A stretch of DNA of 48,581 nt from Anaeromyxobacter soli (lineage in GTDB: Bacteria > Myxococcota > Myxococcia > Myxococcales > Anaeromyxobacteraceae), in NCBI RefSeq assembly GCF_022808855.1, contig NZ_JAKZLF010000027.1:28424-77004 (forward strand), read 5' to 3'. Numbering within the stretch: the stretch's first letter is position 1; each line of letters opens with the position of its first letter. Made by a program: the position numbers and the translations under genes. The notes under the pieces were generated by a model that made no database searches, was not told the origin of the DNA, and was given only the letters and a program-made list of their open reading frames with translations. Shown in pieces: positions 14,153 through 46,204 of this stretch.

Positions 14153-15128
14153 CAGAACTTCTTCTCCACGAAGAACAGGGTGACGCTGGCCGCGGCGGCG
14201 CTGCCCGCCACGACGAACATCGTGTTGGCGCGGTGCGCGCGCGAGGTGGCGTCCGAGACGTGACCGGTCGCGACGGCCCCGTTCGCCTGGCTCATGCCGT
14301 CGATGGCGGACTCCGCCTGCCGCGCGGACCAGCCGAAGTAGCCGCCCGTCGCGGCGGCGGCCACCGCCGTGCCCGCCGCGATCCACGTGTAGATCCGCCG
14401 CTTCTCCCGCGGCTGCGCAGCTGCGGCGCTGGCACCCACGCCGAGGGACGGCCTGCGCGCGGCGGTCCGGGCGGCCTCGGGCCGCGCCGCCAGATCCGGC
14501 GCCGGGGTCGTCTTGGCGAGGGGCGGAGCGGGCTCGGCGGGCGAGACGGTCTTCGCCGCGGCGGGCGGCGGCGGCTGGGCGGGGCGGAGCTGCACGTCCA
14601 CCACCTGGGCCGCGCCGGCGCTCATCGCGATCTCCTGCTCGAGCCGCTCGTGCCCGGCGAGCGCGAGCGCCACGTCGTAGCTGCCCGGCGGCAGCACGAG
14701 GTGGAAGGGGGTCACGCCGCGGACGCGGCCGTCGATGCGAACCTCGGCGCCGGGCGGGTCGGAGTACACGATGAGCGGCTGCGCCCCCGTCGCGGCGAGC
14801 CGCTCCTCGAGCTTCTTCACCGCGGCGCGCACCACGGCGCGGTCGTTCGCGTCGGGCGCCTCGCGCAGGTAGTCGTTGTAGCTGCGGATCGCGGCCGGCC
14901 ACTCGCCGAGCCGCTCGCGGCACTGCGCGACGTTGTAGTGGATCGCCCCGGCGGGCTTCAGCCGGTACGCCTCCTCGAACTCCGCGATGGCCTCGCGATA
15001 CTGCCGGGCGCGGTACAGCTCGGCGCCCTTGCGGAACCGAGCCTTCGCGTCGGCGACCTCGTCCGCGCGGCCGGCGGCCGGCGGGGCGAGCACCGCGAGC
15101 AGGAGCAGGATGGCGAGGAGGCGGCGGA

Positions 15129-15132
<4 letters not shown>
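14152..15132 (-). CDS. TPR and PEGA domain envelope protein
   Basis: The 326-residue protein has a signal peptide (LLAILLLLAVLAPPAAGRA) and TPR-like helices (GAELYRARQYREAIAEFEEA, IHYNVAQCRERLGEW). A PEGA domain with IVYSDPPGAEVRIDG and a Pro-rich linker follow. The C-terminus has two hydrophobic helices flanking a polar loop. PEGA domains are surface or periplasmic adhesion/structural modules common in myxobacteria, often with kinases. It overlaps the upstream kinase by four bases (ATGA) and the downstream lipoprotein by one. Co-production and a shared envelope complex are inferred from that arrangement. Confidence 0.88.
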
Positions 15133-16560
<1,428 letters not shown>

Positions 16561-16562
<2 letters not shown>

Positions 16563-16587
16563 GACGCGTTCACGGGTAGGGTATCAT
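16561..16587 (+). promoter_or_regulatory. Possible promoter for the FHA gene
   Basis: A TATCAT hexamer at 16582-16587 fits a -10 element, with ATGACG (16561-16566) 15 bases upstream as a poor -35. It lies between divergent starts and would leave a leader of about 35 bases before the TTG at 16628. Only weak support. Confidence 0.25.
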
Positions 16588-16627
16588 GGAAGCGGCGGGC
16601 CGGAAGTTCGGCGCCGGGGGAGCGGCC

Positions 16628-17560
16628 TTGTCCGAGATCGTCGTGATGAACGGGGTCTGCGCGGGGACCGTCTTCGTGCTCCCCGACATCCCGACCGTCC
16701 TCGGCCGCTCGCCCGAGTCGCACCTCCAGATCGGCGACCCCTGGATCTCGAGCATGCACGCCATGTTCGAGCGCCGCGGCGAGGAGGTCTGGGTGATCGA
16801 CCTCGAGAGCCGCAACGGCACCTTCGTCGGCGAGGAGCGCGTCGGCGAGGCGCGGCTCGACGACGGCGCGGTGGTCCGCTTCGGGCGCACCGAGATCCGC
16901 TTCACGGCGCGGGCCGGCCGGGGGGCGCCGGCGCGCACTCCGCGCGAGGAGCGCATCCGTCCCGACGCGCAGCGCGACACCATCCGCTCGGAGGGGACGA
17001 TCTCGGCTCGGGTGCTGGCGGCGCGCGAGCCCGTGGCCCACGAGCCCGCAGTCGACCCGCACACGCTCGCCGTGCGGCCGGTCGTCGTGCTCCGGATGTC
17101 GCTCCACGCCGTGCGCATCGCCTCCTCGCCCGACGTCGCGGGCCGGGTCCGCGCGGCCGTCGACGCCGCCGCGAGGGCGGCGCTGAACGAGGGCGCGATG
17201 GTCGGGAGGCTCGCGTCGGTCGGGGTGCTCGCGCTCTTCGGCGTGACCTCACCGCGGGCCGACGACGCCGCCCGCGCCGTGCAGGCGGCGCGCACCGCCC
17301 GCGGCGCGGTGCGCCGGCTCGGCGGCATCGACCTCCGCGCCGCCGTGGACGCGGGACCGCTGCTCGCCGGCAACGCCATGGGGCCGACCGGCGCGGACAT
17401 CGCGGCGCTCGGCGCGGCGGCGGACCGCTGCGAGCGGCTCGCCGCCCTGGCGCTACCCGGCGAGATCCTGCTCGGCCCGGGCGCGGCGGGAGCCGCCGGC
17501 GAGGGCGTGACGCAGCGCGAGCTCGACGGCGCCGCCGTCGAGGTCGTGCGGGACGATTGA
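16628..17560 (+). CDS. FHA domain protein with catalytically dead cyclase-like domain
   Basis: The product is about 310 residues. The N-terminal FHA domain is complete (LGRSPESHLQIG, SSMHA, RNGTFVG) and should bind phosphothreonine peptides. The C-terminal half has the outline of a class III nucleotide cyclase (ALFGVTSPRADDAARAVQAA, AVDAGPLLAGNAMG, AALGAAADRCERLAALALPG). The two metal-binding aspartates are missing: the first strand reads VVVLRMSLHAV and the usual GD is in VGRLASVGV. It is therefore probably a regulatory pseudo-cyclase. The TTG at 16628 is chosen for its strong GGGGGAG; an ATG at 16586 sits inside the putative promoter. It lies between a divergent Ser/Thr kinase and the Ehr regulator genes. 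Confidence 0.8.
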   Translation: MSEIVVMNGVCAGTVFVLPDIPTVLGRSPESHLQIGDPWISSMHAMFERRGEEVWVIDLESRNGTFVGEERVGEARLDDGAVVRFGRTEIRFTARAGRGAPARTPREERIRPDAQRDTIRSEGTISARVLAAREPVAHEPAVDPHTLAVRPVVVLRMSLHAVRIASSPDVAGRVRAAVDAAARAALNEGAMVGRLASVGVLALFGVTSPRADDAARAVQAARTARGAVRRLGGIDLRAAVDAGPLLAGNAMGPTGADIAALGAAADRCERLAALALPGEILLGPGAAGAAGEGVTQRELDGAAVEVVRDD

Positions 17561-17646: not shown

Positions 17647-19119
17647 ATGCCAGAGCTCACTCGTCCCGGCGCCGGGAGCGCCTGTCTCGTCGTGGCGCCC
17701 GTGGGTGCGCCGGGGCTCGTGGACGTCCTCGCGCACGCCGGCTTCACGGTGGTCGCGGCGACGTCCGAGCGCGACGCGCTCGACGCGCTCGAGCAGACGC
17801 CGTTCGCGGCGGTGTACGTCTCCCAGTCCCTCGGCCTCCCGGCCCTCGCGCGCGTGGTCGCCGCCGGCGGGCAGCGGCTCGGCGAGGCGCCGATCATCGT
17901 GCTCGGCAGCTCCGGGACGGTCCAGGAGGCGGTCGACGCCATGCAGCTCGGGGCCACGGACTACGTCGCCCCGCCGTTCGACCCCGACGCCGTGCTCCGG
18001 CGCCTCGGCCGCGCGCTCGAGCGCTCCGTGCCGCCGCGCCGCGAGCCGTTCCCCGCCGGGCTCCTCGGCGTCGTGGGCACCTCTGCGGCGATGCGGCGGC
18101 TGCACGACTCCATCGACAAAATCTCGCGCTACAAGAGCAACGTCCTCCTCCTCGGCGAGAGCGGCACTGGCAAGGAGATCATCGCGCGGGCGCTCCACGA
18201 GCGCGGCCCGCGCCGCCAGCACCTCTTCGTCCCCGTGAACTGCGCCACGCTCGGGCGCGACATCCTCGAGAACGAGCTCTTCGGGCACGAGCGAGGGGCG
18301 TTCACCGGCGCGAACGAGCGCAAGAAGGGGCTGTTCGAGCTCGCCGACGGCGGCACCTTCTTCCTCGACGAGATCGCCGAGATGGATCTCTCGACGCAGG
18401 CGAAGCTCCTGCGCGTCCTGGAGCGCAGCGAGTTCCGGCGCGTCGGCGGCACCGCCAAGGTGAAGGTGGATCTCTCCATCATCGCGGCGACGAACCGCGA
18501 TCTCGAGGAGGCGATCGCCGCCGGCCGGTTCCGCGAGGACCTCTACTACCGCCTCAAGGTCGTGACGCTCGTGGTCCCGCCCCTGCGCGATCGGCGCGAG
18601 GACATCCCCCCGCTCGTGGACGCGTTCATCGCGGACTTCAACCGCCGCACGGGCGGGCGCATCGCGGGGGTCGACCCCGAGGCCCTCGAGTGGCTCGTCG
18701 GCTGCGACTGGCCGGGCAACGTCCGCGAGCTCCGGAACGCGGTCGAGGGCGCGTGCGTGCTCGCGCCCGGCGAGGTGGTGAAGCTCGCCGACCTGGCGGA
18801 GCGCGTCGAGCGCCGCGAGCGCCGCCCCGCGGCCCGCGCGCCCGCGCCCGCGCGCGCCGCCCCCGAGCCGGCCGCGGCCGTGCCGGGAGCCTCGACGGAC
18901 GGGGCAGCGCCGGGTGGCGCGCCGCTCCCCATCGGCGGCACCATCGTGATCCCCATCGGCTGCACGCTCGCCGAGGCCGAGCGCCGCATCGTCCTCGCGA
19001 ACCTCCGCCATTTCCGGACCCGCGCCCGCGCCGCGCGGGCGCTCGGCGTCGGCCTGCGCACGCTCTACACGAAGCTCGCCGCGTGGTCGAAAGACGGGGA
19101 GGATGCCGAAACGGCATGA
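17647..19119 (+). CDS. Sigma-54-dependent transcriptional activator with degenerate receiver
   Basis: The 490-residue product has three parts. Residues 10-125 have a CheY-like outline, ending GATDYVAPPF, but have no acidic pair after strand 1, no phospho-acceptor Asp in AAVYVSQSL, and Pro in place of the conserved Lys. The AAA+ domain (about 140-380) is intact: Walker A GESGTGKE (170-177), the sigma-54 contact loop GAFTGA (217-222), Walker B FFLDEI, and WPGNVRELRN. A Pro/Ala linker leads to a Fis-type HTH (about 450-485). It should remodel sigma-54 RNA polymerase, but control must come from something other than aspartate phosphorylation. AGAAGG precedes the ATG by eight bases. It probably controls the Ehr operon downstream. 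Confidence 0.93.
   Translation: MPELTRPGAGSACLVVAPVGAPGLVDVLAHAGFTVVAATSERDALDALEQTPFAAVYVSQSLGLPALARVVAAGGQRLGEAPIIVLGSSGTVQEAVDAMQLGATDYVAPPFDPDAVLRRLGRALERSVPPRREPFPAGLLGVVGTSAAMRRLHDSIDKISRYKSNVLLLGESGTGKEIIARALHERGPRRQHLFVPVNCATLGRDILENELFGHERGAFTGANERKKGLFELADGGTFFLDEIAEMDLSTQAKLLRVLERSEFRRVGGTAKVKVDLSIIAATNRDLEEAIAAGRFREDLYYRLKVVTLVVPPLRDRREDIPPLVDAFIADFNRRTGGRIAGVDPEALEWLVGCDWPGNVRELRNAVEGACVLAPGEVVKLADLAERVERRERRPAARAPAPARAAPEPAAAVPGASTDGAAPGGAPLPIGGTIVIPIGCTLAEAERRIVLANLRHFRTRARAARALGVGLRTLYTKLAAWSKDGEDAETA
19104..19116. promoter_or_regulatory. Inverted copy of the 13-base palindrome
   Basis: TGCCGAAACGGCA is the exact reverse complement of the site at 17618-17630. It sits across the last codons of the activator gene and the ATG of the next gene. 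It could be a second operator or chance within coding sequence. Confidence 0.3.
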
Positions 19120-19592
19120 TCCCTGGGCGGCCGCCCCGGAGATCCGCCCGGAACCGGGCGGATCTCGCGGAGATCGGGGCTGGCGCGCTTCCTGCTCTCG
19201 TCGGGGGCGTGTCCTCGAGAGCGCCGCCCTCCGTCCTCGTGCTCGCCCGTCCCGGGCCGGAGAGCGACGACCTGTTCGCCGACCTCTCGCAGCGGGAGGA
19301 CGTCTGCCTGCTGCGCGTCGCGACCGCGGCAGCGGCGAACGTGGCCATCGGGGAGCTCGCGGTCGCGCTCGTCATCGCGTGCCCGCAGATTCCGCCCCAC
19401 GCGATCGACTCGGTCCTCGCCCAGCTCGACGCGCTCCGCCCGGGGACGCCGGTGCTCGCCATCCGCACGCGCCAGGCGCAGGAGCCGGCCGCGTGGGGCG
19501 AGCGGGGCGTGGCGGTGCTGCGCCTGCCGCTCCTCGCCGGCGTCCTGTCGCGGGCGGTGGACGTCGTCCTCGGCATGACGGGCAAGCTCTAG
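19116..19592 (+). CDS. Receiver-like protein lacking phosphorylation residues
   Basis: The 158-residue product starts at an ATG overlapping the stop of the activator (ATGA, 19116-19119), so translation is coupled. From about 38 on it has a CheY-like alternation (SVLVLARPG, VALVIACPQIP, GTPVLAIRT, GVAVLRLPLL), but none of the conserved acidic pair, Asp or Lys is visible. I do not recognise a named family. It resembles the degenerate receiver of the activator just upstream, so it may have arisen from it or bind it. An internal GTG at 19208 would give a shorter protein starting at the receiver-like part. Confidence 0.7.
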   Translation: MIPGRPPRRSARNRADLAEIGAGALPALVGGVSSRAPPSVLVLARPGPESDDLFADLSQREDVCLLRVATAAAANVAIGELAVALVIACPQIPPHAIDSVLAQLDALRPGTPVLAIRTRQAQEPAAWGERGVAVLRLPLLAGVLSRAVDVVLGMTGKL

Positions 19593-19611: not shown

Positions 19612-20310
19612 ATGCAGCTCACGACGCGCGACGCTTCCCGCCTCCTCGGCGTCTCGGACTCGACGCTCCACCGCTGGCTCAAGAGCGGCGAGCTCCCCTC
19701 CACCCGCGTGAACGACCAGTACCGGCTGAACCGGATCGACCTCCTGGAGTTCGCCGCCGCGCGGAACCTGGCCATCTCCGCCGAGCTGCTCGCGGAGCTC
19801 GAGACGGAGGCGCCGGAGCTGCCGAGCCTCGCCGACGCGCTCCGGGCCGGCGGGGTCCACCGCGGCCTCTCCGGCACGGACAAGCCGGCCATCCTGCGGG
19901 AGGTCGTCGAGCGGCTGCCGCTCCCGCGCCCCGCCGATCGGGAGCTGCTCCACCGCGTCCTCCTGGCCCGCGAGGCGCTCGGCTCGACCGGCCTCGGCAA
20001 CGGCATCGCGATCCCGCACGCCCGGAACCCCATCGTCCTCCGCATCGCGCGGCCGGAGGTGGCGATCTGCTACCTCGACACGCCCGTCGAGTTCGGGGCC
20101 ATCGACGGCAAGCCCGTGCACACGCTCGTGACCCTCGTGACCCCGTCCACCCGCGTGCACCTGCACCTGCTCGCCGTCGTCGCCGCCGCGCTGCACGACC
20201 CCGCGGTGCTCGCGAGGCTCGAGGCGCGCGCCGGCGCCGAGGAGCTGCTCCCCGAGATCTCCCGGGTCGAGGCGGCCATCGCCGCGCAGCGCGCCGGGAG
20301 CGCCCGGTGA
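19612..20310 (+). CDS. Excisionase-type HTH fused to PTS EIIA-Ntr domain
   Basis: The product is 232 residues. Residues 1-55 are a MerR/excisionase-type DNA-binding helix-turn-helix (TTRDASRLLGVSDSTLHRWL, then EFAAARN). Residues about 70-225 are a PtsN-type EIIA domain with the phosphorylatable His 136 in GNGIAIPHARN. EIIA-Ntr receives phosphate from PtsO/NPr and regulates nitrogen, potassium and stress functions. Here the phospho-domain is joined to a DNA-binding domain, so it may act as a phosphate-controlled transcription factor for the operon. Its stop overlaps the GTG start of the first hydrogenase-like subunit (GTGA). GAGAAG lies just before its ATG. Confidence 0.9.
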   Translation: MQLTTRDASRLLGVSDSTLHRWLKSGELPSTRVNDQYRLNRIDLLEFAAARNLAISAELLAELETEAPELPSLADALRAGGVHRGLSGTDKPAILREVVERLPLPRPADRELLHRVLLAREALGSTGLGNGIAIPHARNPIVLRIARPEVAICYLDTPVEFGAIDGKPVHTLVTLVTPSTRVHLHLLAVVAAALHDPAVLARLEARAGAEELLPEISRVEAAIAAQRAGSAR

Positions 20311-22313
20311 GCCTCTTCCTCGCCGCGCTCGTCGTCCTCGTGGCGGGTGGCGCCGCCGCGCTCGCCGCCTCCGCTCGCCCCACCGCCGCGCTCGCCATCG
20401 GCAGCGCGAGCGCCGCCGCGGGCTCCGCGATGGGGCTCCTCGCCGCCTTCCCCGCGCTCCGCGCGCCTCCGTCCGCCTGGGAGCTCGCCTGGGCGGTGCC
20501 GAACGGCGCGATCGCGCTCGGGCTCGATCCGCTCTCCGCGGTCTTCGCCGTCGCGGTGTTCGCGCTCGGCCTCGCCGCGGCCGTGTTCGGGGCGGGCTAC
20601 ATGCGCGCCCACCTCGCGCGGCGCTCGCTCGGCGCGTTCCTGTTCTTCTTCAACGTCCTCCTCGCCTCGATGGCGGTGCTCGTGGCCGCCCGCCAGGCGC
20701 TCCTGTTCATCGTCGCGTGGGAGACGATGACCGTCTCGTCGTTCCTGCTCGTCGGCCTCGAGCACGAGGCGGGGGCGGTGCGGATGGCGACGCGGACGTA
20801 CCTCGTCGCGTCCCACCTCGGGGCCGCGTTCCTCTTCGGGCTGTTCCTCACGCTCGGTCACGCCGCCGGGTCGCTGAGGTTCGAGGCGTTCGAGGCCCTG
20901 CGCGCCGGCTCCGCGGTCCCGGCGACGCTGCTGTTCGTCTTCGCCCTCGTGGGCTTCGGCACCAAGGCCGGCCTCGTCCCGCTCCACGTGTGGCTGCCGG
21001 AGGCCCACCCGGCGGCGCCGAGCCACGTCTCCGCGCTCATGTCGGGCGTCCTCGTGAAGATGGGCGTCTACGGCATCCTGCGGGTGCTCACCTTCCTGCC
21101 TCCGGCGCCCGTCTCCCACGGCCTCGCGCTCGCCGCGGTCGGGCTGCTCGGCGCGGTCGCCGCGCTGCTCCTCGCCCTCGGGCAGCGCGACCTGAAGCGC
21201 ATCCTGGCCTACTCCACGGTCGAGAACGTCGGGATCATCGCGTTGGGCCTCGGCGTGGGCCTCGTCGGCGCGGCGGGCCGGGCCCCCGCGGTCGCCGCGC
21301 TCGGGGTCGCCGGCGCGCTCCTCCACGTCTGGAACCACGCCCTGATGAAGGGGCTCGCCTTCATGGGCGCCGGCGCGGTGGTGCACGGCGCGGGCACCCG
21401 CGACGTGGAGCGGATGGGCGGCCTCCTCCGGCGCCTCCCGGTGAGCGCGGGGCTGCTCGTGTTCGCGGCCGTCGCGCTCGCGGCGCTCCCGCCGCTCAAC
21501 GGCTTCGTCTCCGAGTGGCTGCTCTACCTGGGCCTCCTCGACGGCGGGCAGGGCTCTGCCGCCGGGACCGCCCTGCTCGCCTACCTGTCCCTCGCCGTGC
21601 TCGCGCTCGTCGGCGCGCTCGCTGCCATCGTGTTCACCCGGCTCGTCGGGGCGGCGCTGCTCGGCAGCCCGCGCAGCCCCGAGGCGGCGTCCGCCCACGA
21701 GGGCGGCCCGCTGCTCCTCGCGCCCCTCGCCGCCCTCGCCGCAGCGAACGCCGCCGTGGCGCTCTTCCCCGGCCAGGCGGTCGCGCTCCTCACCCCGGCG
21801 GCCGCGATCGTGCTCCGCGTCCCCGCGGCGGAGCTCGCGGCGAGGCTCGCCCCCGCGCTCTCCGCGCTCGCCGGGCCGCTCCGCGCGGGGCTCGCGCTCC
21901 TCCTCCTCTGTGGCGTCGCGCTCGCCCTCGCCTCGCGGCGGATGCTCGCCCGGCGCGACGTGCGCGCCGCCCAGACCTGGGGCTGCGGCTTCTCCGCCGA
22001 GAGCGCGCGCGTGCAGTACACAGCCGCCTCGCTCTCCGAGCTCGCGCTCGCGGCGATCGCGCCGCGCGCGCTCCGCCCCGTCGAGACCCCGGCGCGGCCG
22101 GAGGGCCTCTTCCCCCGCCGCGTCCGCTACGCCCAGGAGGCGGACGACCCCGCCCGCGCGCGCGTGTTCGAGCCGGCGTTCCGCGCGGTGGGCGAGTGGT
22201 TCGGGCGGCTGCGGCACTTCCAGCAGTCGCGGCTCAACCTGCAGCTCCTCTACACGGTCCTCACCGTCCTCGCCCTCTCGGCGCTCCTCCTCTTCCACCA
22301 GCGCGGCCCATGA
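20307..22313 (+). CDS. hyfB: Hydrogenase-4/complex I-like antiporter subunit (HyfB type, copy 1)
   Basis: The product is a 668-residue polytopic membrane protein of the NuoL/Mrp antiporter family. Ion-channel residues are kept: the Glu in VAWETMTVSSFL, Lys in GTKAGLVPLHVWLPEAH, Lys in SGVLVKMGVYGILR, and Lys in ALMKGLAFMGAG. The C-terminal TWGCGFSAESARVQYTA segment identifies the HyfB/HycC branch. It should translocate H+ or Na+ in the membrane arm of the Ehr complex. The GTG start overlaps the EIIA stop and its own stop overlaps the next ATG. The next gene is a paralogue of similar length. Confidence 0.92.
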   Translation: MSLFLAALVVLVAGGAAALAASARPTAALAIGSASAAAGSAMGLLAAFPALRAPPSAWELAWAVPNGAIALGLDPLSAVFAVAVFALGLAAAVFGAGYMRAHLARRSLGAFLFFFNVLLASMAVLVAARQALLFIVAWETMTVSSFLLVGLEHEAGAVRMATRTYLVASHLGAAFLFGLFLTLGHAAGSLRFEAFEALRAGSAVPATLLFVFALVGFGTKAGLVPLHVWLPEAHPAAPSHVSALMSGVLVKMGVYGILRVLTFLPPAPVSHGLALAAVGLLGAVAALLLALGQRDLKRILAYSTVENVGIIALGLGVGLVGAAGRAPAVAALGVAGALLHVWNHALMKGLAFMGAGAVVHGAGTRDVERMGGLLRRLPVSAGLLVFAAVALAALPPLNGFVSEWLLYLGLLDGGQGSAAGTALLAYLSLAVLALVGALAAIVFTRLVGAALLGSPRSPEAASAHEGGPLLLAPLAALAAANAAVALFPGQAVALLTPAAAIVLRVPAAELAARLAPALSALAGPLRAGLALLLLCGVALALASRRMLARRDVRAAQTWGCGFSAESARVQYTAASLSELALAAIAPRALRPVETPARPEGLFPRRVRYAQEADDPARARVFEPAFRAVGEWFGRLRHFQQSRLNLQLLYTVLTVLALSALLLFHQRGP

Positions 22314-24274
22314 CGCTCGTCCCCGTCCTCGGCGCCATCGCCCTCCCCGCCGCGAGCGGGCTCGCCGCGGCCGCGCTGCGCGCGCGGCCGGCCGCGGGCC
22401 AGGCCCTCGCGTGCGCCGCGCTGTGCGCGGGGGCGGCCCTCGGCGTCGCGGCGGCGGGGACGGTGCTCCTCGGCGGGGAGCTCTCGGCGCCGGCGCTCGG
22501 GCTGCGCCTCGACGCGCTCTCGGCGATCTTCCTCTTGCCCATCTGCGCGGTCTCGGCGCTCGGGGCGGTGTACGGGCTCGGCTACTACCCGCAGGCCGAG
22601 CACGGCCCGCGCGCCGTGCGGCTGCAGCTCTTCTACGGGCTCGCCACGGGCGGGATGGTCCTCCTCGTCGTGGCGGGGCACGCCGTCGTGTTCCTCGTCG
22701 GCTGGGAGGTGATGGCGCTCTCCGGCTTCCTCCTCGTCCACACGGACCACGAGCGCGCGGAGGTGCAGCGCGCGGCGCTCGTGTACCTCGCGGCCACGCA
22801 CGTCGGGACGCTCGCGCTCTTCGCGCTCTTCGCCCTCCTGCGGCAGGCGGCGGGGTCGTTCGACTTCGCGGCGATGCAGGGGCTGCCCGGTGCGGGCCGG
22901 CTCGCGGCGAGCGCCTTCGCGCTCGCGCTCCTCGGCTTCGGCGTGAAGGCCGGCCTCATGCCGCTCCACTTCTGGCTGCCGGGCGCGCACGCGGCGGCGC
23001 CGTCGCACGTCTCGGCGGTGATGTCCGGGGTGCTCATCAAGACCGGCATCTACGGGCTCCTGCGCGTGACGGGGCTCTTCGCCGCGCCGCCCGCGACGTG
23101 GGGGACGGCGCTCCTCCTGCTCGGCGGCGCCTCCGCCGTGCTGGGGGTCGCGTTCGCCCTCGCGCAGCACGATCTCAAGCGGCTCCTCGCGTACCACAGC
23201 GTCGAGAACATCGGGATCATCGCCCTCGGCACCGGGCTCGCGCTGCTCGGCCGGTCGCGCGGCGAGCCCGGCCTCGTGGTGCTCGGGCTCGGGGGCGCGA
23301 CGCTCCACGTCGTGAACCACGCGCTGTTCAAGTCGCTCCTCTTCCTCGGCGCCGGCGCGGTCCAGCACGCGACGGGCACGCGCGAGCTCGACCTCCTCGG
23401 CGGGCTCGCGCGCCCGATGCGCGCGACCGCGGTGCTCTTCCTCGTCGGCGCGGCGGCGATCAGCGGGCTCCCGCCGCTCAACGGGTTCGTCTCGGAGTGG
23501 CTCGTCTACATGGGCTTCCTCTCCGCCCTGGAGCGCGGCGGGGGCGACCTCCTCGCCTTCGCGGCGCTGGGCGTGCCGGCGCTGGCGCTGGTCGGCGGGC
23601 TCGCCGCGGCGTGCTTCGTCAAGGTGGTGGGGGTGGTGTTCCTCGGCACCCCGCGCAGCGCGCACCCGCGCGCCGCGCACGAGGCGCCGCGGACGATGCT
23701 CGTGCCGATGGCGATCCTCGCCGCGGCCTGCGCCGCGATCGGCCTCGCCCCGGCCGCCGCGCTCCCGGCGCTGGTCCGCGCGGCGGCGGCCTGGTCGCGG
23801 CTCCCGCCCGAGCTCCTCGACGGCGCGGCGGCGCGCGCGGGCGCGGGCGCCTCGCGGGTGAGCGTCGCCGCGGCCGCGCTCCTCGTCGCGACGGCAGGCC
23901 TGGTCCTCCTCCGCCGTCGCCTCGGGGCGCCGCGCGCCCCCGACGTCGAGACCTGGGGCTGCGCCTTCTCTGGCCCGCTCCCGCGCGCGCAGTACACCGG
24001 CTCGTCCTTCGCCGAGCTGCTCGTCCGCCGCTTCTCGTGGGCGATCTTCCCGCGCGGCGCCGCGCCGCGCCTCGGCGGGGCGTTCCCGGCCCGCGCCGCG
24101 TTCCACACCGAGGTGCCGGACACGGTCCTCGATCTCGCGCTCGCCCCCGCCGCGCGCGGCTTCCGGTGGCTCGCCGCGCGGGCCCACCTCCTCTTCCTGC
24201 GCCGCATCCAGTTCCAGGTGCTGCTCGTCCTCGCGACGCTGCTCGCGATCCTCGCCTGGGGATTCGGCTGGTGA
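22310..24274 (+). CDS. hyfB: Hydrogenase-4/complex I-like antiporter subunit (HyfB type, copy 2)
   Basis: The product is 654 residues, paralogous to the preceding subunit along its whole length. It keeps the Glu in VGWEVMALSGFL, Lys in GVKAGLMPLHFWLPGAH, Lys in GVLIKTGIYGLLR, and Lys in ALFKSLLFLGAG. It also has the HyfB-type tail TWGCAFSGPLPRAQYTGSSF. In hydrogenase-4 the second antiporter subunit is HyfD, which lacks this tail; here a second HyfB-type protein occupies that place. Starts at ATG overlapping the previous stop, and ends overlapping the GTG of the HyfC gene. It is likely a second ion channel of the complex. Confidence 0.91.
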   Translation: MTLVPVLGAIALPAASGLAAAALRARPAAGQALACAALCAGAALGVAAAGTVLLGGELSAPALGLRLDALSAIFLLPICAVSALGAVYGLGYYPQAEHGPRAVRLQLFYGLATGGMVLLVVAGHAVVFLVGWEVMALSGFLLVHTDHERAEVQRAALVYLAATHVGTLALFALFALLRQAAGSFDFAAMQGLPGAGRLAASAFALALLGFGVKAGLMPLHFWLPGAHAAAPSHVSAVMSGVLIKTGIYGLLRVTGLFAAPPATWGTALLLLGGASAVLGVAFALAQHDLKRLLAYHSVENIGIIALGTGLALLGRSRGEPGLVVLGLGGATLHVVNHALFKSLLFLGAGAVQHATGTRELDLLGGLARPMRATAVLFLVGAAAISGLPPLNGFVSEWLVYMGFLSALERGGGDLLAFAALGVPALALVGGLAAACFVKVVGVVFLGTPRSAHPRAAHEAPRTMLVPMAILAAACAAIGLAPAAALPALVRAAAAWSRLPPELLDGAAARAGAGASRVSVAAAALLVATAGLVLLRRRLGAPRAPDVETWGCAFSGPLPRAQYTGSSFAELLVRRFSWAIFPRGAAPRLGGAFPARAAFHTEVPDTVLDLALAPAARGFRWLAARAHLLFLRRIQFQVLLVLATLLAILAWGFGW

Positions 24275-25194
24275 ACACGCCCATGCTCCTCCTGCGCACC
24301 GTGCTGCACCTCGCCGCGCTCCTCGCGCTGCCCCCTCTCCTCCTCGGCGTCGTGAACCGCACGAAGTCGATCTTCGCGGGGCGCGTCGGACCTCCGCTGC
24401 TGCAGCCCTACCTCGATCTCGCGAAGCTCCTGCGCAAGGGCGCGGTCTACAGCCGGACCACGACCTGGGTGTTCCGCGCGGGCCCGATCGTCGGGCTCGC
24501 CGCCGTGGCGTCGGCCGGGCTCCTCCTCTCGATGGGCGGCGCGCCCGCGGCGCTCTCCTTCGCGGGGGACTTCGTCCTGTTCGCGTACCTGCTCGGCCTC
24601 GCGCGCTTCGCGACCGCCCTCGCGGCGCTCGACACCGGCTCCGCGTTCGAGGGGATGGGCGCCGCGCGCGAGGTCACGTTCGCGAGCCTCGCCGAGCCGG
24701 CCCTCTTCCTGTGCCTGCTCGTGCTGGCGCGCGCGACGGGCACCCTCTCGCTCTCCGGCATGCTCGGCCCGGCGCTCCCGGGGGCGTGGGGCTCCGCCGG
24801 CCCGGCGCTGCTCCTCGCCGCCATCGCGGTGTTCGTCATCGCCCTCGCCGAGAACTCGCGCATCCCGGTGGACGACCCGAACACGCACCTCGAGCTCACG
24901 ATGATCCACGAGGTGATGGTGCTCGACCACGGCGGGCCCGACCTCGCCTTCATCCTGTACGGCGCGTCCCTGAAGCTCTTCCTCTTCGGGGCGATCCTCT
25001 CCCGCCTCGTCCTCGGCCGCGGCGACGGCGCGCTCGCCTCGGAGGCGCTGTTCTTCCTGGGCGTCCTCTGCTTCGCGGTGGGCGTCGGCGTCGTCGAGTC
25101 CGTGATGGCGCGGCTGCGCATCGTGCGCGTCCCGCAGCTCCTCGTGGGCGCGTCGGTCCTCTCCGTGTTCGCGCTCGTCCTCCTCCTCCGGTGA
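24271..25194 (+). CDS. hyfC: Hydrogenase-4/complex I-like subunit HyfC (NuoH family)
   Basis: This is a 307-residue polytopic protein of the NuoH/HycD family that joins the peripheral arm to the membrane arm and forms the quinone-site-like entry channel. Conserved signatures are GRVGPPLLQPYLDLAKLLRK near the N-terminus, an EGMGAARE loop, and ENSRIPVDDPNTHLELTMIH. The GTG at 24271 overlaps the previous stop (GTGA); an ATG at 24283 is a possible shorter start. The length and motifs are normal for the family. Confidence 0.92.
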   Translation: MNTPMLLLRTVLHLAALLALPPLLLGVVNRTKSIFAGRVGPPLLQPYLDLAKLLRKGAVYSRTTTWVFRAGPIVGLAAVASAGLLLSMGGAPAALSFAGDFVLFAYLLGLARFATALAALDTGSAFEGMGAAREVTFASLAEPALFLCLLVLARATGTLSLSGMLGPALPGAWGSAGPALLLAAIAVFVIALAENSRIPVDDPNTHLELTMIHEVMVLDHGGPDLAFILYGASLKLFLFGAILSRLVLGRGDGALASEALFFLGVLCFAVGVGVVESVMARLRIVRVPQLLVGASVLSVFALVLLLR

Positions 25195-25199
25195 CCGCG

Positions 25200-25847
25200 A
25201 TGGCCTCGTTCGTCGATCTCGTCTTCGTCCTGGTCGTCGTCATCGACCTGTTCCTGCTCGCCTCGAGCCGCCTCGGCGCCGCGATCCGCACCGTCGCGAT
25301 CCAGGGCGCGCTCCTCGCGGCGCTCCCGCTCCTCCTCGTCCGCGAGTCTCACAACCTCGGCCACGCGGTCCTCCTCGCCGGCGGCGCGCTCGCCATCAAG
25401 GGGTTCTTCATCCCCTGGCTGATGTTCCGGGCGATCCGCGAGGCGTCGATCCGCCGCGAGATGGAGCCCGTCATCGGCTTCGTCCCCTCGATGGTGCTCG
25501 GCGCGGTGGGCGTCGCGCTCGCCTTCGCGTTCTCGAGCCGGCTGCCGCTCCCCGACGCCGGCGCCCACGGCTTCCTCGTGCCGACCGCGCTCTCCACGGT
25601 CTGGACCGGGCTCCTCCTCGTCGTCACCCGCAAGAAGGCGGTGAGCCAGGTGCTCGGGTTCCTCGTCCTCGAGAACGGGGTCTACGTCTTCGGGCTGCTG
25701 CTCTCCGACGTCATGCCGGTCATGGTCGAGGCGGGCGTCCTCCTCGACCTCTTCGCGGCGGTGTTCGTGATGGGCATCGTCATGTTCCACATCAACCGCG
25801 AGTTCTCCTCGCTCGACACCGAGAAGCTCTCGGCGCTGAAGGATTAG
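25200..25847 (+). CDS. hyfE: Hydrogenase-4 subunit HyfE
   Basis: The 215-residue membrane protein has about six to seven hydrophobic segments and is similar to HyfE, a NuoK-related subunit. The C-terminal part LGFLVLENGVYVFGLLL is the NuoK-like core, with a Glu in the membrane helix; a second Glu lies in MVEAGVLLDLF. The ATG at 25200 has GGTGA five bases upstream. A GTG at 25191 overlaps the previous stop in the same GTGA pattern used by its neighbours, so it is a real alternative. It is predicted to lie between HyfC and the antiporter subunits. Confidence 0.9.
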   Translation: MASFVDLVFVLVVVIDLFLLASSRLGAAIRTVAIQGALLAALPLLLVRESHNLGHAVLLAGGALAIKGFFIPWLMFRAIREASIRREMEPVIGFVPSMVLGAVGVALAFAFSSRLPLPDAGAHGFLVPTALSTVWTGLLLVVTRKKAVSQVLGFLVLENGVYVFGLLLSDVMPVMVEAGVLLDLFAAVFVMGIVMFHINREFSSLDTEKLSALKD

Positions 25848-25855
25848 GGCGCGCC

Positions 25856-27289
25856 ATGCTCTTCGTCATCCTCGCCCCGCTCGCGCTCGCGCCCGTCGCG
25901 CTCCTCGTCCCCTCGAACCGCCGCCGGCCGCTGGTGCTCCTCGCGGGCGCGCTCCTTCACGCCGCCGGGGTGGCCGCCCTGTTCGCCTCGCCGCCGCCCG
26001 CCCGCGCCGGCGCGTGGCTCGCCTTCGACCCCATGGCGAAGGTGACGCTCCTCACGGTGACCGCCCTCTTCCTCGCCGCCGCCATCTACGCGCAGGGCTA
26101 CCTCGCCCGGCGTGCCGACCGCGACAACCGGATCTTCGTGGGCGGTCTCCTGCTCCTCCTCGCCGCGATGACCGTCGTCGCGCTCTCGCACCACCTCGGC
26201 CTCTCGTGGGTCGCCATCGAGGCGACCACGCTGGCGAGCGCGCCGCTCATCTACTTCAACCACAACGCGCGCTCGCTCGAGGCGACCTGGAAGTACCTCC
26301 TCATCTGCTCGCTCGGCATCGCGCTCGCGCTGCTCGGCACGTTCTTCCTCGCGCTGTCCGGCGCCGGGGCCGGGGGACCCCGCTCGCTCCTCCTCGACGA
26401 CCTCATCGCCGCGGGGCCGTCCCTGTCGCGGCCGTGGGTGCGCGCGGCCTTCGTCCTGCTCCTCGTCGGCTACGGGACGAAGATGGGCCTCGCGCCCCTC
26501 CACTCCTGGAAGCCCGACGCCTACGGCGAGGCGCCCGGGCTCCTCGGCGCCCTCCTCGCCGGCGGCCTCACGAACTTCGCGTTCCTCTCCATCGCCCGCG
26601 TCTTCCAGGTGACCCGCGCCGCGGGCGACGAGGCGTTCGCGCGCGACGCCCTCGTCGGCCTCGGCCTGCTCTCCATCGCGCTCGCCGCCGTGTTCGTCGT
26701 GGGGCAGCGCGACTTCAAGCGGATGCTCGCGTACTCGAGCGTCGAGCACATGGGCATCCTCGCCCTCGGCATCGGCCTCGGCGGCGGCGCGGCGGGCGGC
26801 GCGTTCTTCCACTCGATGAACAACGGCCTCACGAAGGGCGTCCTGTTCCTCTCTGCCGGCAACATCCACCGCGCGTTCGGGGCGAAGACCACCGACGAGG
26901 TCCGCGGCGCCGCGCGCCGGCTCCCGGTGTCGGGGCCGCTCTTCCTCGCCGGGTTCCTCGCCATCACCGGCTCGCCGCCCTTCTCCCCGTTCTTCAGCGA
27001 GTTCGCCATCCTGAACGGCGCCTTCGGGGCCGGCCGCTTCGTGGTCGGCGGGCTCTTCCTCGCGCTCCTCGCGGTCATCTTCATCGGCATGGCGACCACC
27101 GTCCTCGCGGTGGTGCAGGGCGACCCGGGGGATGCGCCGCGGGTGCCCGGGACGGACGACAGCTGGCTCACCGCCGCCCCGCCCTTCGCCCTCATGGTGC
27201 TCGTCCTCCTGCTCGGGCTCTTCCTGCCCCAGGGGCTCAGGGATCTCTTCGGTGCCGCGGCGCAGCTCGTCGGCGGCCGCTGGGACTGA
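25856..27289 (+). CDS. hyfF: Hydrogenase-4 antiporter-like subunit HyfF
   Basis: The product is 477 residues, a third antiporter-like membrane subunit, of the HyfF/NuoN branch. Channel residues are present: Glu in VAIEATTLASAPL, Lys in GYGTKMGLAPLHSWKPDAY, Lys in NNGLTKGVLFLSAGN, and the loop SVEHMGILALGIG. It starts nine bases after hyfE. With the two HyfB-type proteins the complex would have three antiporter-like channels plus the HyfC/E path, close to the pumping capacity of complex I. The ion (H+ or Na+) cannot be read from the sequence. Confidence 0.92.
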   Translation: MLFVILAPLALAPVALLVPSNRRRPLVLLAGALLHAAGVAALFASPPPARAGAWLAFDPMAKVTLLTVTALFLAAAIYAQGYLARRADRDNRIFVGGLLLLLAAMTVVALSHHLGLSWVAIEATTLASAPLIYFNHNARSLEATWKYLLICSLGIALALLGTFFLALSGAGAGGPRSLLLDDLIAAGPSLSRPWVRAAFVLLLVGYGTKMGLAPLHSWKPDAYGEAPGLLGALLAGGLTNFAFLSIARVFQVTRAAGDEAFARDALVGLGLLSIALAAVFVVGQRDFKRMLAYSSVEHMGILALGIGLGGGAAGGAFFHSMNNGLTKGVLFLSAGNIHRAFGAKTTDEVRGAARRLPVSGPLFLAGFLAITGSPPFSPFFSEFAILNGAFGAGRFVVGGLFLALLAVIFIGMATTVLAVVQGDPGDAPRVPGTDDSWLTAAPPFALMVLVLLLGLFLPQGLRDLFGAAAQLVGGRWD

Positions 27290-27291
27290 AC

Positions 27292-28839
27292 ATGACCGGA
27301 CCCATTCACGACGTCCGCCCCCGCGCGAGCGACCTCCTCGAGACCTGGAACGGCGAGGCGGTGGACGCCCGCGCCGTGCCCGTGCACCCCGTCTCGCGCT
27401 TCCGCGCGATCGTCCTCGAGGCCCTCGCGGGCGGCGGCCGGCTCGCCGCCCTCTTCGGGCGCCCCGCCGAGGGCCGCGTGCTCCTGACGGCCGTGCTCGC
27501 CGACGATCCCGAGGGTCGGCTCGCGCTCCTCTCCACGCTGGTCGACGGCGCCTACCCGGCGCTCTCGGCCGAGGTCCCCGCTGCGCAGGGGTTCGAGCGC
27601 GAGCTCGCGGAGCAGTACGGCGTCCGCCCCGAGGGGCACCCCTGGCTGAAGCCGCTCAGGTTCGAGCCGCCGCTGCGCCCGGTGCGCGACGCGTTCGGCC
27701 GGCGCGATCCTCGCGCGACGATCCCGGGCGAGTACCCGTTCTTCGCCGTGGAGGGCGAGGAGGTGCACGAGGTCGCGGTCGGCCCGGTGCACGCCGGGAT
27801 CATCGAGCCCGGGCACTTCCGCTTCCAGTGCCACGGCGAGCAGGTGTTCCACCTCGAGATCGTGCTCGGCTACCAGCACCGCGGCGTCGAGCCGCTGCTC
27901 CAGGGCGGCCCCGACCGCCGCTCCCTCGCGCTCGCCGAGTCGATCGCCGGCGACACCTCGGTCGGCCACGGGCTCGCGTACGTCAAGGCGCTCGAGTCGC
28001 TCGCCGGGCGGCCCCCGCCCGCCCGGGCGATGGCGCTCCGCGGCGTGGCCCTCGAGCTCGAGCGGCTCGCGAACCACGTGGGCGATCTCGGCGCGCTCGC
28101 GGGGGACGTCGGCTTCCTCCCGACGGCCTCGTACTGCGGCGCGCTGCGGGCCGAGTTCCTGAACGCGACCGCGGAGCTCTGCGGGAACCGCTTCGGTCGC
28201 GGCCTGCTCGTCCCGGGCGGCGTGCGCCACGACCTCGGCGCCGCGGAGGCGCAGGCGATCGCCGCGCGGGTGCGCGGGGCCTGGGAGAAGTCGCGCCGCG
28301 CGGCCGGGCTCTTCTTCGAGTCGCCCTCGGTGCGCGCCCGGCTCGAGGGCACCGGCGCGGTGTCGCGCGAGACGGCCCTGGCCCTCGGGCTCGTGGGGCC
28401 GGCGGCGCGGGCGAGCGGCGTGGACCGCGACGTGCGGCGCGACCACGCGTTCGGCATCTTCCGGTTCGTCCACGTCCCGGTGGTCACCGCGGACACCGGG
28501 GACGTGTTCGCGCGCGCCTGGATCCGGCTCCTCGAGGGCGAGCGGAGCGCGGCGTTCGTCGCGAGCCAGCTCGAGAACCTCCCCGAGGGCGGCGCGCGCG
28601 ATCCGCTCGGCCCGCTCGCGCCCGGGTCGCTGGTGGTCTCGATGGTGGAGGGCTGGCGCGGCGAGATCGCGCACGTCGCCGTGACGGACGAGGCCGGACG
28701 CCTCGCCCGCTACAAGGTGAAGGACCCCTCGTTCCACAACTGGTTCGGGCTCGCGATGGCGCTCCGGGACGGACAGATCTCGGACTTCCCGCTCTGCAAC
28801 AAGAGCTTCAACCTCTCCTACGCGGGGCACGACCTGTGA
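27292..28839 (+). CDS. hyfG: Ehr-type large subunit: NuoC-NuoD/HycE-like, lacking NiFe ligands
   Basis: The product is 515 residues. The first ~130 are NuoC-like (AAQGFERELAEQYGVRPEGH), the rest NuoD/HycE-like (HFRFQCHGEQVFHLEIVLGY, RGVEPLLQG). In NiFe hydrogenases the L1 motif RxCGxC holds nickel; here the same place reads ESIAGDTSVGHGLAY (about 217-230), with no Cys. The C-terminal DPCxxC is also absent; the protein ends FPLCNKSFNLSYAGHDL with one Cys at 502. There is no C-terminal extension beyond that site for maturation cleavage. It therefore cannot assemble a NiFe centre as in known enzymes. This matches the energy-converting hydrogenase-related (Ehr) group, between complex I and group 4 hydrogenases. 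Substrate unknown. Confidence 0.9.
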   Translation: MTGPIHDVRPRASDLLETWNGEAVDARAVPVHPVSRFRAIVLEALAGGGRLAALFGRPAEGRVLLTAVLADDPEGRLALLSTLVDGAYPALSAEVPAAQGFERELAEQYGVRPEGHPWLKPLRFEPPLRPVRDAFGRRDPRATIPGEYPFFAVEGEEVHEVAVGPVHAGIIEPGHFRFQCHGEQVFHLEIVLGYQHRGVEPLLQGGPDRRSLALAESIAGDTSVGHGLAYVKALESLAGRPPPARAMALRGVALELERLANHVGDLGALAGDVGFLPTASYCGALRAEFLNATAELCGNRFGRGLLVPGGVRHDLGAAEAQAIAARVRGAWEKSRRAAGLFFESPSVRARLEGTGAVSRETALALGLVGPAARASGVDRDVRRDHAFGIFRFVHVPVVTADTGDVFARAWIRLLEGERSAAFVASQLENLPEGGARDPLGPLAPGSLVVSMVEGWRGEIAHVAVTDEAGRLARYKVKDPSFHNWFGLAMALRDGQISDFPLCNKSFNLSYAGHDL

Positions 28840-29606
28840 TCGACATCCTCAAGTTCAGGCTCGGCTACGGCCGCCAGACGGTCGCGTTCCCGGACGGCCC
28901 GCCGAAGTTCCCGGCGCGGTTCCGGGGGCGCCCCGCCGTCGATCCGTCCCGCTGCACCGACGGGTGCACCGCGTGCGCGGAGATCTGCCCGACCGAGGCG
29001 ATCCTCGCGCCGGGGACGGCGTCGATGGCGGTGGACCTCGGCCGGTGCGTCTTCTGCGGCGACTGCGCCGCGGCTTGCCCGCCCGGGGCGATCCGCTTCA
29101 CGGACGACCACCGGCTCGCCGCGCGCGCGCGCGAGGCGCTCGTCGTCCGCGGCGACGAGCCCGTGCTCGCGGCGGCGCTCGACGGCGAGATGCGCCGCGT
29201 CCTCGGCCGCTCGCTCAAGCTCCGGCAGGTGTCGGCCGCGGGCTGCAACGGCTGCGAGGCCGAGCTCAACGCGACCGGCAACATCCAGTTCGACCTGGGC
29301 CGCTTCGGCGTGCAGTTCGTCGCCTCGCCCCGCCACGCCGACGGGATCGTCGTGACCGGCCCGGTCTCCGAGAACATGCTGCTCGCGCTCCGGAAGACCT
29401 ACGAGGCGGTCCCCGCCCCGCGGCTCGTCATCGCGGTCGGCGCCTGCGCCATCTCGGGCGGCGTGTTCCGGGAGAGCCCCGTGGTGAGCGGCGGCGCCGA
29501 GGCGGCGCTCGCTGGGATCCCGGTGGACCTCTTCGTCCCCGGCTGCCCGCCCCACCCGATCACGATCGTGGACGGGCTCCTGCGGCTCTTGGGGCGGCTG
29601 GGGTGA
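28836..29606 (+). CDS. hyfI: Ferredoxin-NuoB fusion subunit (HyfH-HyfI type)
   Basis: The product is 256 residues that combine two usually separate subunits. Residues about 38-85 bind two [4Fe-4S] clusters: Cys 40, 44, 47, 51 (C-x3-C-x2-C-x3-CP, one residue longer than usual at the first gap) and Cys 71, 74, 77, 81 (regular CxxCxxCxxxCP). Residues about 125-255 are the NuoB/HycG-like small subunit with Cys 137, 140, 204 and 237 for the proximal cluster (AAGCNGCEAEL, GACAISGG, PGCPPHP). It forms an electron wire in the peripheral arm. The GTG start overlaps the large-subunit stop (GTGA). It is the last gene of the operon, and no hydrogenase maturation genes follow. Confidence 0.91.
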   Translation: MIDILKFRLGYGRQTVAFPDGPPKFPARFRGRPAVDPSRCTDGCTACAEICPTEAILAPGTASMAVDLGRCVFCGDCAAACPPGAIRFTDDHRLAARAREALVVRGDEPVLAAALDGEMRRVLGRSLKLRQVSAAGCNGCEAELNATGNIQFDLGRFGVQFVASPRHADGIVVTGPVSENMLLALRKTYEAVPAPRLVIAVGACAISGGVFRESPVVSGGAEAALAGIPVDLFVPGCPPHPITIVDGLLRLLGRLG

Positions 29607-30299: not shown

Positions 30300-30991
30300 G
30301 CTCAAGCCGCGCCCGCCGCCTGCGAAGAGGAGCAGCCACCGCGCGCTCGTCGCTGTGGAACGACGCGCCGTGCTCGACGTCCTGCACGAGCCCCGCTTTG
30401 CGGAGCTCGCGCCCGCCGAGGTCTACGCGACGCTGCTCGACGAGGGCCGGTATCTCTGCTCGGAGCGCACCATGTACCGCGTCCTCGCTGAGAACGCGGA
30501 GGTCCGCGGGCGGCGGGACCAACTGCGGCAACCGAAGTACAAGGCGCCCGAGCTGCTCGCCATCGCCCCGAACCAGCTCTGGAGCTGGGACATCGCGAAG
30601 CTGCTCGGCCCGCGGATCATCCGCGAACCTGTGAACGCGAAGCATCCAGCGCGACCAGCTCACGGTCCACGCCGACCGTGGCACCTCTATGACCTCGAAC
30701 CCGGTCGCGCTGATGCTCGCCGACCTGGGCGTCACGAAGAGCCACTCGCGGCCGCACGTCTCGAACGACAACCCGTTCTCCGAGTCGCAGTTCAAGACGA
30801 TGAAACTCCGGCCCGACTTCCCGGAACGCTTCGGCGCCGTCGAGGACGGGCGTGCGCACTGCGCCGACTTCTTCGGCTGGTACAACACCGAGCACAGCCA
30901 CGGCGGGCTCGGGCTGGTGACGCCGCACGACGTCCACCACGGCCTCGCGGCCGCCCGCCTCCACGAGGAGACGAAGTCGTGCACGCGGTAG
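30280..30991 (+). pseudogene. IS3-type transposase (rve integrase) remnant with internal deletion
   Basis: Two frames hold parts of one integrase-type transposase. The first (to about 30615) contains [37 protein letters not shown] and the catalytic-strand motif [12 protein letters not shown]. The second (from about 30645) contains [16 protein letters not shown], then [20 protein letters not shown] and [13 protein letters not shown]. About 40 or more residues between the first and second DDE Asp regions are missing and the frame shifts at the junction, so the enzyme is inactive. No terminal inverted repeats were recognised. Confidence 0.82.
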
Positions 30992-39340: not shown

Positions 39341-42187
<2,847 letters not shown>

Positions 42188-45906: not shown

Positions 45907-46109
45907 TCTCCCAGCCCAGCGCCGAGGTCAGCGACCGCTTGCGCTCGCCTGCGGCGGCTGGAGCGGTGTAGCTTGCGACAGCCGACCGCACCGGGACGGG
46001 CGAGGCCCTGTCGGAGCGAGTAGGCATCGAGGTGTGCGCCCGGGCGCGGGGAGCAGGGGGCCGGGTCGAAACTAGACTCGGCGGCTCCACGAGTTGTTCC
46101 CGATCCGGT

Positions 46110-46139
46110 TTGCCCTGGCCGAAATTCGCTGGGTAGGAT
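46110..46139 (+). promoter_or_regulatory. Probable gltA promoter
   Basis: TTGCCC (46110-46115) and TAGGAT (46134-46139) are spaced 18 bases apart. Transcription would start near 46146, giving a leader of about 60 bases. A TGTAG/CTACA inverted repeat (46163-46187) lies in that leader and might form a weak hairpin or bind a regulator. This also argues for the internal ATG of the gene. Confidence 0.4.
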
Positions 46140-46204
46140 TCGGCCCTCGGTTCAACGCGCTCTGTAGTTGCAGAACAAACCTCTACAAATGGCTGGGGTC
46201 GACA

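Follow-up and report, generated by a model that had tools for sequence, protein, structure and literature searches.

What does a complex do that possesses the subunits of a group 4 hydrogenase, along with their iron-sulfur clusters, but lacks the nickel-iron site? The question is raised by a stretch of 48,581 nucleotides from Anaeromyxobacter soli (the window; contig NZ_JAKZLF010000027.1), in which seven tightly packed genes (20307-29606) encode a hydrogenase-4-like complex of the Ehr type. The family calls (Pfam, NCBIfam) identify two HyfB-like subunits, one each of NuoH/HyfC-, HyfE- and HyfF-like subunits, a NuoC-NuoD fusion (the large subunit, EhrL) and a ferredoxin-NuoB fusion (EhrS), and the unit begins with a gene for a helix-turn-helix protein carrying an EIIA domain of the phosphotransferase system (PTS), here HTH-EIIA. 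We consider it rather probable that Ehr is a PTS-regulated, ferredoxin-linked ion pump of the complex I/group 4 hydrogenase superfamily, whose pocket holds no metal and takes a polar substrate, generally not quinone.

Ehr is an already described family, on which Marreiros reportedly worked in 2013. Complexes of this type, without NiFe ligands and with a function considered unknown or unproven, are covered in a number of papers (PMC6349859, PMC7304191, PMC10284858, PMC10432482, PMC12342949), in which, as in PMC13194489, Coppi (2005) is cited on Ehr. In Nitrospira moscoviensis, Ehr expression is not raised by H2 (PMC12342949), and no publication assigning Ehr a function was found in the literature. 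New here are the monophyly of Ehr and its sister lineage, the selected pocket, the evidence on quinone and the linkage to HTH-EIIA. The family is widespread, with more than 500 relatives in many phyla and, according to the literature, in nitrifiers, and the present results bear on how pumps of the complex I type switch substrate.

The Empty Nickel-Iron Site

The first-pass annotation of this DNA described a large subunit without the nickel cysteines in L1 and without DPCxxC at the C-terminus, and the texts read as quoted there (ESIAGDTSVGHGLAY for L1 and FPLCNKSFNLSYAGHDL for the C-terminus; residue 1 of EhrL is the ATG at 27292). In a structure-supported alignment with HycE, HyfG and NuoCD of Escherichia coli and with the three NuoD proteins of the same genome, the four Ni-Fe cysteine positions are taken by A219, T222, S509 and G512, and no nickel-ligand cysteines were found elsewhere. 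EhrL ends at HDL, directly after L2, while HycE and HyfG continue for approximately 32 residues, a stretch that is removed following metal insertion. The earlier statement that no hyp gene lies nearby stands; the genome's hypD belongs to a different contig, where the large subunit of a true hydrogenase is encoded at a distance of about 3.5 kb. The possibility of a cryptic NiFe site was rejected, as C180 and C502 are kept in the main Ehr clade, but C180 is missing in deep Ehr branches, and position 511, a Cys in approximately 80% of relatives, is Ala in this EhrL; C180 and C502 could conceivably serve a metal site of another kind.

The AlphaFold (AF2) model of EhrL, for which 62 sequences from the window and the loci were used (mean pLDDT 89.7), matches HycE of the FHL complex along its entire length (Z 46.0, 496 residues, 2.9 Å) and the NuoD proteins with Z about 42. 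Around the former metal site, G220, D221, S509 (99%), G512 and the stretch SDFPxCNKSF are invariant or nearly so across the EhrL alignment, in many phyla. A total of 21 columns are invariant or near-invariant in the main Ehr clade yet different in its [NiFe] sister lineage, including D221 (flanked by the positions of the two lost L1 cysteines), D272, D478, S509, G512, and W455, which stands where the E-A-P-R-G motif has Pro. D272 aligns with D139 of Thermus Nqo4, a quinone-site residue, and with an Asp of Pyrococcus MBH. By alignment to enzymes of known structure, D221, D272, E453, W455, R456, S509 and Y510 would line the pocket, and such named residues can be mutated, making the function of Ehr directly testable.

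A Single Origin

The confirmed relatives of EhrL, at least 555 in number, span Myxococcota, Geobacter relatives, Verrucomicrobiota, Planctomycetota, Acidobacteriota, Omnitrophota, Elusimicrobia, Treponema and others, the protein of A. terrae (97% identical) being the closest among the matches listed. The Cys-less EhrL form one clade (support 100/94) in a 65-row PMSF tree, with 54 rows assigned by their Cys-less site, none being a sequence named Ehr in a paper; the protein studied here belongs to this clade, in line with its original identification as Ehr-type. The sister group (100/100) consists of two large subunits with all four cysteines and the L2 stretch DFPLxNKSF (L103 in G192, L111 in G239), which we refer to as the NKSF-type [NiFe] group 4 lineage. 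Because the Cys-less Ehr are monophyletic and sister to a lineage with an intact metal site, the tree is consistent with the Ni-Fe site having been lost just once, its deeper order being unsure (midpoint root, with long branches between groups flagged). While the DFPLxNKSF stretch is common to both, the NKSF-type lineage keeps CGVC...CYSC where Ehr has GD...SYxG. The NKSF motif was therefore rejected as an Ehr signature. The two [NiFe] large subunits (L103:6780-8420, minus strand, and L111), with CGVC and NKSFELCYSCTDR, are well suited as an outgroup when the disappearance of the metal site is traced. L104, L105 and L112 encode Ehr-like large subunits that branch deeply and differ in their L1 texts (for example, SGTASVAH), possibly representing separate subfamilies.

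As to the known systems, Ehr resembles the [NiFe] group 4 enzymes (HycE of FHL-1, Hyf, MBH) in fold, subunit plan, Fe-S route (the proximal cluster of the small subunit and the ferredoxin-type clusters are present in EhrS) and R456 of E-x-x-R-G, but differs in the replacement of all four Ni-Fe cysteines and in the lack of the C-terminal extension. The Geobacter ehr and the Nitrospira Ehr share with it the hydrogenase-4-like gene set, an EhrL without the four cysteines and the Cys-less clade; the core is the same, while two HyfB genes and the upstream HTH-EIIA gene are found here.

Proposed Electron and Ion Paths

EhrS retains its Fe-S cysteines, most of them with a conservation of at least 90% (n = 77 relatives), comprising two ferredoxin-type sets and the N2-type ligands C137, C140, C204 and C237. 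The clusters are thus kept, as originally proposed, although the two Fe-S parts belong to one fused protein and not to separate subunits. The same three-cluster layout is found in the ferredoxin-linked MBH, and reduced ferredoxin would be the electron partner of Ehr. No NuoE/F/G-type NADH module family and no flavin- or NAD-binding subunit were detected in the Pfam/NCBIfam scan of the operon genes. Each of the three antiporter-type subunits keeps both motif lysines (motif types K-G-L-x-P-L-H and N-H-A-L-x-K) and shows an acidic residue in the WE/IE motif, and ion pumping is for this reason plausible.

Alternative Reactions

The core of NuoB, C, D, H, K and antiporter-type subunits, the NuoD-like fold and the D272/D139 equivalence are all shared with complex I, and Ehr could be a ferredoxin:quinone oxidoreductase, in essence a complex I without the NADH module, reducing menaquinone at the former NiFe site. 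Anaeromyxobacter does possess NuoD copies of complex I, and 14 of the 30 Ehr genomes tested encode either MqnA/D (10 genomes) or MenD above cut-off (five genomes, one of them with both), with five further genomes showing strong UbiE only. However, Asp139 is the one residue of the quinone site that EhrL has retained: His38 is replaced by I171 (the equivalence taken from a gapless alignment block) and Tyr87 by G220 (Thermus Nqo4 numbering), while the genome's own NuoD proteins retain both; the N2 ligands of Ehr, unlike those of complex I, are of the CxxC type. Moreover, in the marker searches strong UbiE, MqnA/D and MenD were all missing from 11 of the 30 genomes, those of L050 (Treponema), L063 and L076 (Ozemobacter), L022, L036 and L042 (Kiritimatiellae), L032 and L064 (Lentisphaerae), and L029, L062 and L068 (Omnitrophota), the absence repeating in related genomes. 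UbiA (PF01040) was dropped as a marker, as this broad family is found in 28 of the 30 genomes and is uninformative. Riflemargulisbacteria also carry Ehr without full quinone pathways (PMC6349859). As two of the three quinone-site residues are replaced and 11 of the 30 carriers lack the markers, quinone is unlikely to be the acceptor in general, and menaquinone reduction as the reaction of Ehr appears unlikely; carriers that possess quinone could use it.

A reaction like that of Pyrococcus MBS/Mbx, in which Ehr would act as a ferredoxin-dependent sulfane sulfur (polysulfide) reductase, we regard as improbable. MBS does combine a three-cluster route with lost NiFe ligands, as does Ehr; the ferredoxin-type Fe-S route and the antiporter-type subunits are common to both, and the MBS chain 6u8y_L is related to EhrL. 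However, the match is more distant (for EhrL, MbsL ranks below FHL HycE, MBH and several NuoD chains), EhrS has conserved all four of its N2-type cysteines, and Ehr is present in nitrifiers with no obvious link to sulfur (PMC12342949). MBS/Mbx and Ehr would likely have separate origins.

For Riflemargulisbacteria and Saganbacteria, whose genomes also carry fdhA and nuoEF-like genes, it has been suggested that Ehr is fed not by free ferredoxin but by a separate soluble dehydrogenase, such as a formate dehydrogenase with NuoEF-like subunits (PMC6349859). This proposal we find very doubtful for the family, as no dehydrogenase family recurs in the flanks of 80 loci when flanking open reading frames are clustered, and no formate dehydrogenase was recognised in the window, as also remarked in the first-pass annotation. 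A conserved partner enzyme of any kind was rejected on the same clustering, which returned low-frequency families, the commonest in 7 loci. A SulP-family transporter gene is found in the Ehr flanks of 7 loci from several phyla (L041, with STAS, L060, L065, L067, L074, L011 and L025), sometimes with an ArsR-type regulator.

A Site Under Selection

The ratios of nonsynonymous to synonymous substitution rates (dN/dS), calculated versus A. terrae, are 0.08 for the L subunit, 0.09 for C, 0.10 for F, 0.14 for E, 0.15 for S and 0.22 for HyfB-2; HyfB-1 was left out, as its gene is cut off in L001 and L002 and the match there is another HyfB-type gene. With these ratios, and with the pocket residues D221, S509, G512, D272 and W455 near-invariant across phyla, the substitution patterns indicate that the empty site is not decaying but is maintained by purifying selection. 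In a recent study, the Ehr of Geobacter sulfurreducens was deemed already non-functional, and missense changes in it appeared over 17 years on electrodes (PMC13194489, 2026); given the low dN/dS and the near-invariant pocket, that verdict does not fit Anaeromyxobacter. A dead, decaying hydrogenase kept by chance, as supposed in that study, would account for the missing catalytic metal site and for the missense changes, and is nevertheless extremely improbable in view of the dN/dS ratios, the pocket conserved over many phyla, and the whole Ehr operons intact in most full-length loci.

A Probable EIIA-Type Regulator

The seven genes were correctly recognized in the first-pass annotation, in both coordinates and family calls, while the start of the unit was missed, the operon beginning at 19612 with the HTH-EIIA gene, the final codons of which run into the beginning of the first HyfB gene. 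This gene is found directly 5' of Ehr in 52 of the 61 loci with readable upstream DNA, or in 53 if L013 is included, where it precedes a further HyfB gene; H136 (in GxAIPHxR) and H183 are invariant (n = 52 sequences). One HyfB copy is present in 33 of the EIIA-positive loci and two in 19. Among 195 Myxococcota genomes, 45 encode EhrL and 23 encode full-length HTH-EIIA (E below 1e-40), all 23 also encoding EhrL, in counts not corrected for relatedness. As only two EIIA_2 genes are present in the genome, the linkage is not background. Enzyme I proteins for phosphotransfer are encoded as well. The PtsN protein of E. coli, when unphosphorylated, binds to the K+/H+ antiporter YcgO and inhibits it (PMC11808508), and for this reason it is reasonable to find an EIIA next to a complex of the antiporter type: in both cases an EIIA domain with an invariant active-site His is found beside cation- or proton-translocating proteins. 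Unlike PtsN, the EIIA domain here is fused to a DNA-binding domain, and direct contact with the pump is only putative. HTH-EIIA would thus place Ehr under PTS control, a connection for which no publication was found in a literature search with most subscription journals outside its coverage.

How Ehr May Work

According to the model that we favor, the ancestor of Ehr would have lost the Ni-Fe site once, and the same cavity would now serve another, metal-free reaction. Electrons would enter from (or leave to) reduced ferredoxin via the two [4Fe-4S] clusters and the one N2-type cluster of EhrS, a small polar redox substrate would be converted in the EhrL pocket, and this reaction would drive H+ or Na+ through the three antiporter-type subunits and the HyfC/HyfE connector, with the phosphorylation state of HTH-EIIA setting Ehr expression and perhaps activity. 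More tentatively, Ehr might represent a further way to run a complex I-type pump, ferredoxin-driven, with a metal- and quinone-free pocket for a polar metabolite and with a dedicated HTH-EIIA switch reporting the phosphoenolpyruvate/pyruvate (perhaps K+) state.

A number of points weigh against this model. No experiment on Ehr activity was found in the literature. D272 is found in complex I and Pyrococcus MBH too and so points to no single substrate, and the NKSF stretch, already present in the [NiFe] sister lineage, is no mark of new chemistry. The structure model covers a single EhrL chain and is of low confidence in the loops around the site (165-173 and 511-515). The genomes in the quinone test are mostly metagenome-assembled, the marker-less ones nearly all, with completeness not stated. 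The case that Ehr is a living enzyme, free of metal, in general independent of quinone and equipped with its own EIIA regulator, is concrete and testable.

Gene Layout and Neighboring Genes

Table 1. Genes of the Ehr unit and its possible second regulator, with window coordinates.
Feature	Coordinates	Strand	Evidence
Sigma-54 activator, possible regulator of unit (weaker linkage)	17647..19119	+	PF00158 3e-67
HTH_17 + PTS EIIA(Ntr)-type regulator, first gene of unit	19612..20310	+	PF12728 1e-12, PF00359 3e-21 (77 bits)
HyfB-like antiporter-type subunit 1	20307..22313	+	PF00361 4e-48; NF005086 hydrogenase 4 subunit B 514 bits; motifs VAWETM, GTKAGL, NHALMKG
HyfB-like antiporter-type subunit 2	22310..24274	+	PF00361 8e-48; NF005086 559 bits; channel motifs kept
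HyfC/NuoH-like membrane subunit	24271..25194	+	PF00146 2e-30; DDPNTHLELTMIHE motif near-invariant, n = 70 sequences
HyfE-like (NuoK-related) membrane subunit	25191..25847	+	NF008556 hydrogenase 4 membrane subunit 86 bits; PF00420
HyfF-like antiporter-type subunit	25856..27289	+	PF00361 6e-44; NF005044 hydrogenase 4 subunit F 307 bits
EhrL: NuoC-NuoD fusion, large subunit without NiFe cysteines	27292..28839	+	Alignment; AF2 model; Z 46 to FHL HycE
EhrS: 2x[4Fe-4S] ferredoxin domain fused to NuoB/HyfI-like small subunit	28836..29606	+	PF01058 4e-29; Fer4 families

Within the operon, 4-base overlaps (GTGA/ATGA) are found at the boundaries 20307, 22310, 24271, 25191 and 28836, and gaps of 8 and 2 bases precede 25856 and 27292. 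Homologues of the sigma-54 activator (56-63% identity) adjoin Ehr operons in L004, L098, L099 and L108; in L098 and L099, both from the genus Anaeromyxobacter, two divergent Ehr operons flank such an activator, the second EhrL being approximately 46% identical to the EhrL of this stretch. A sigma-54 promoter (-24/-12) upstream received no support (4 matches in the window versus 4.0 expected, one at 19181), and the promoter search gave no match to sigma-70-like promoters. Downstream, on the same strand, genes for aconitase and citrate synthase are found (39341-42187 and 46094-47533, plus strand), with nothing tying them to Ehr. An rve_3 integrase core fragment just 3' of the operon (30689-30991, plus strand) is likely an insertion sequence remnant. 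Between the sigma-54 activator and HTH-EIIA genes, an open frame of approximately 148 amino acids (19146-19592, plus strand) appears receiver-like by eye, with no Pfam match, and upstream of the activator are genes for a Ser/Thr protein kinase (15129-16562, minus strand), an FHA-domain protein (16586-17560, plus strand) and a PEGA/TPR protein (14152-15132, minus strand).

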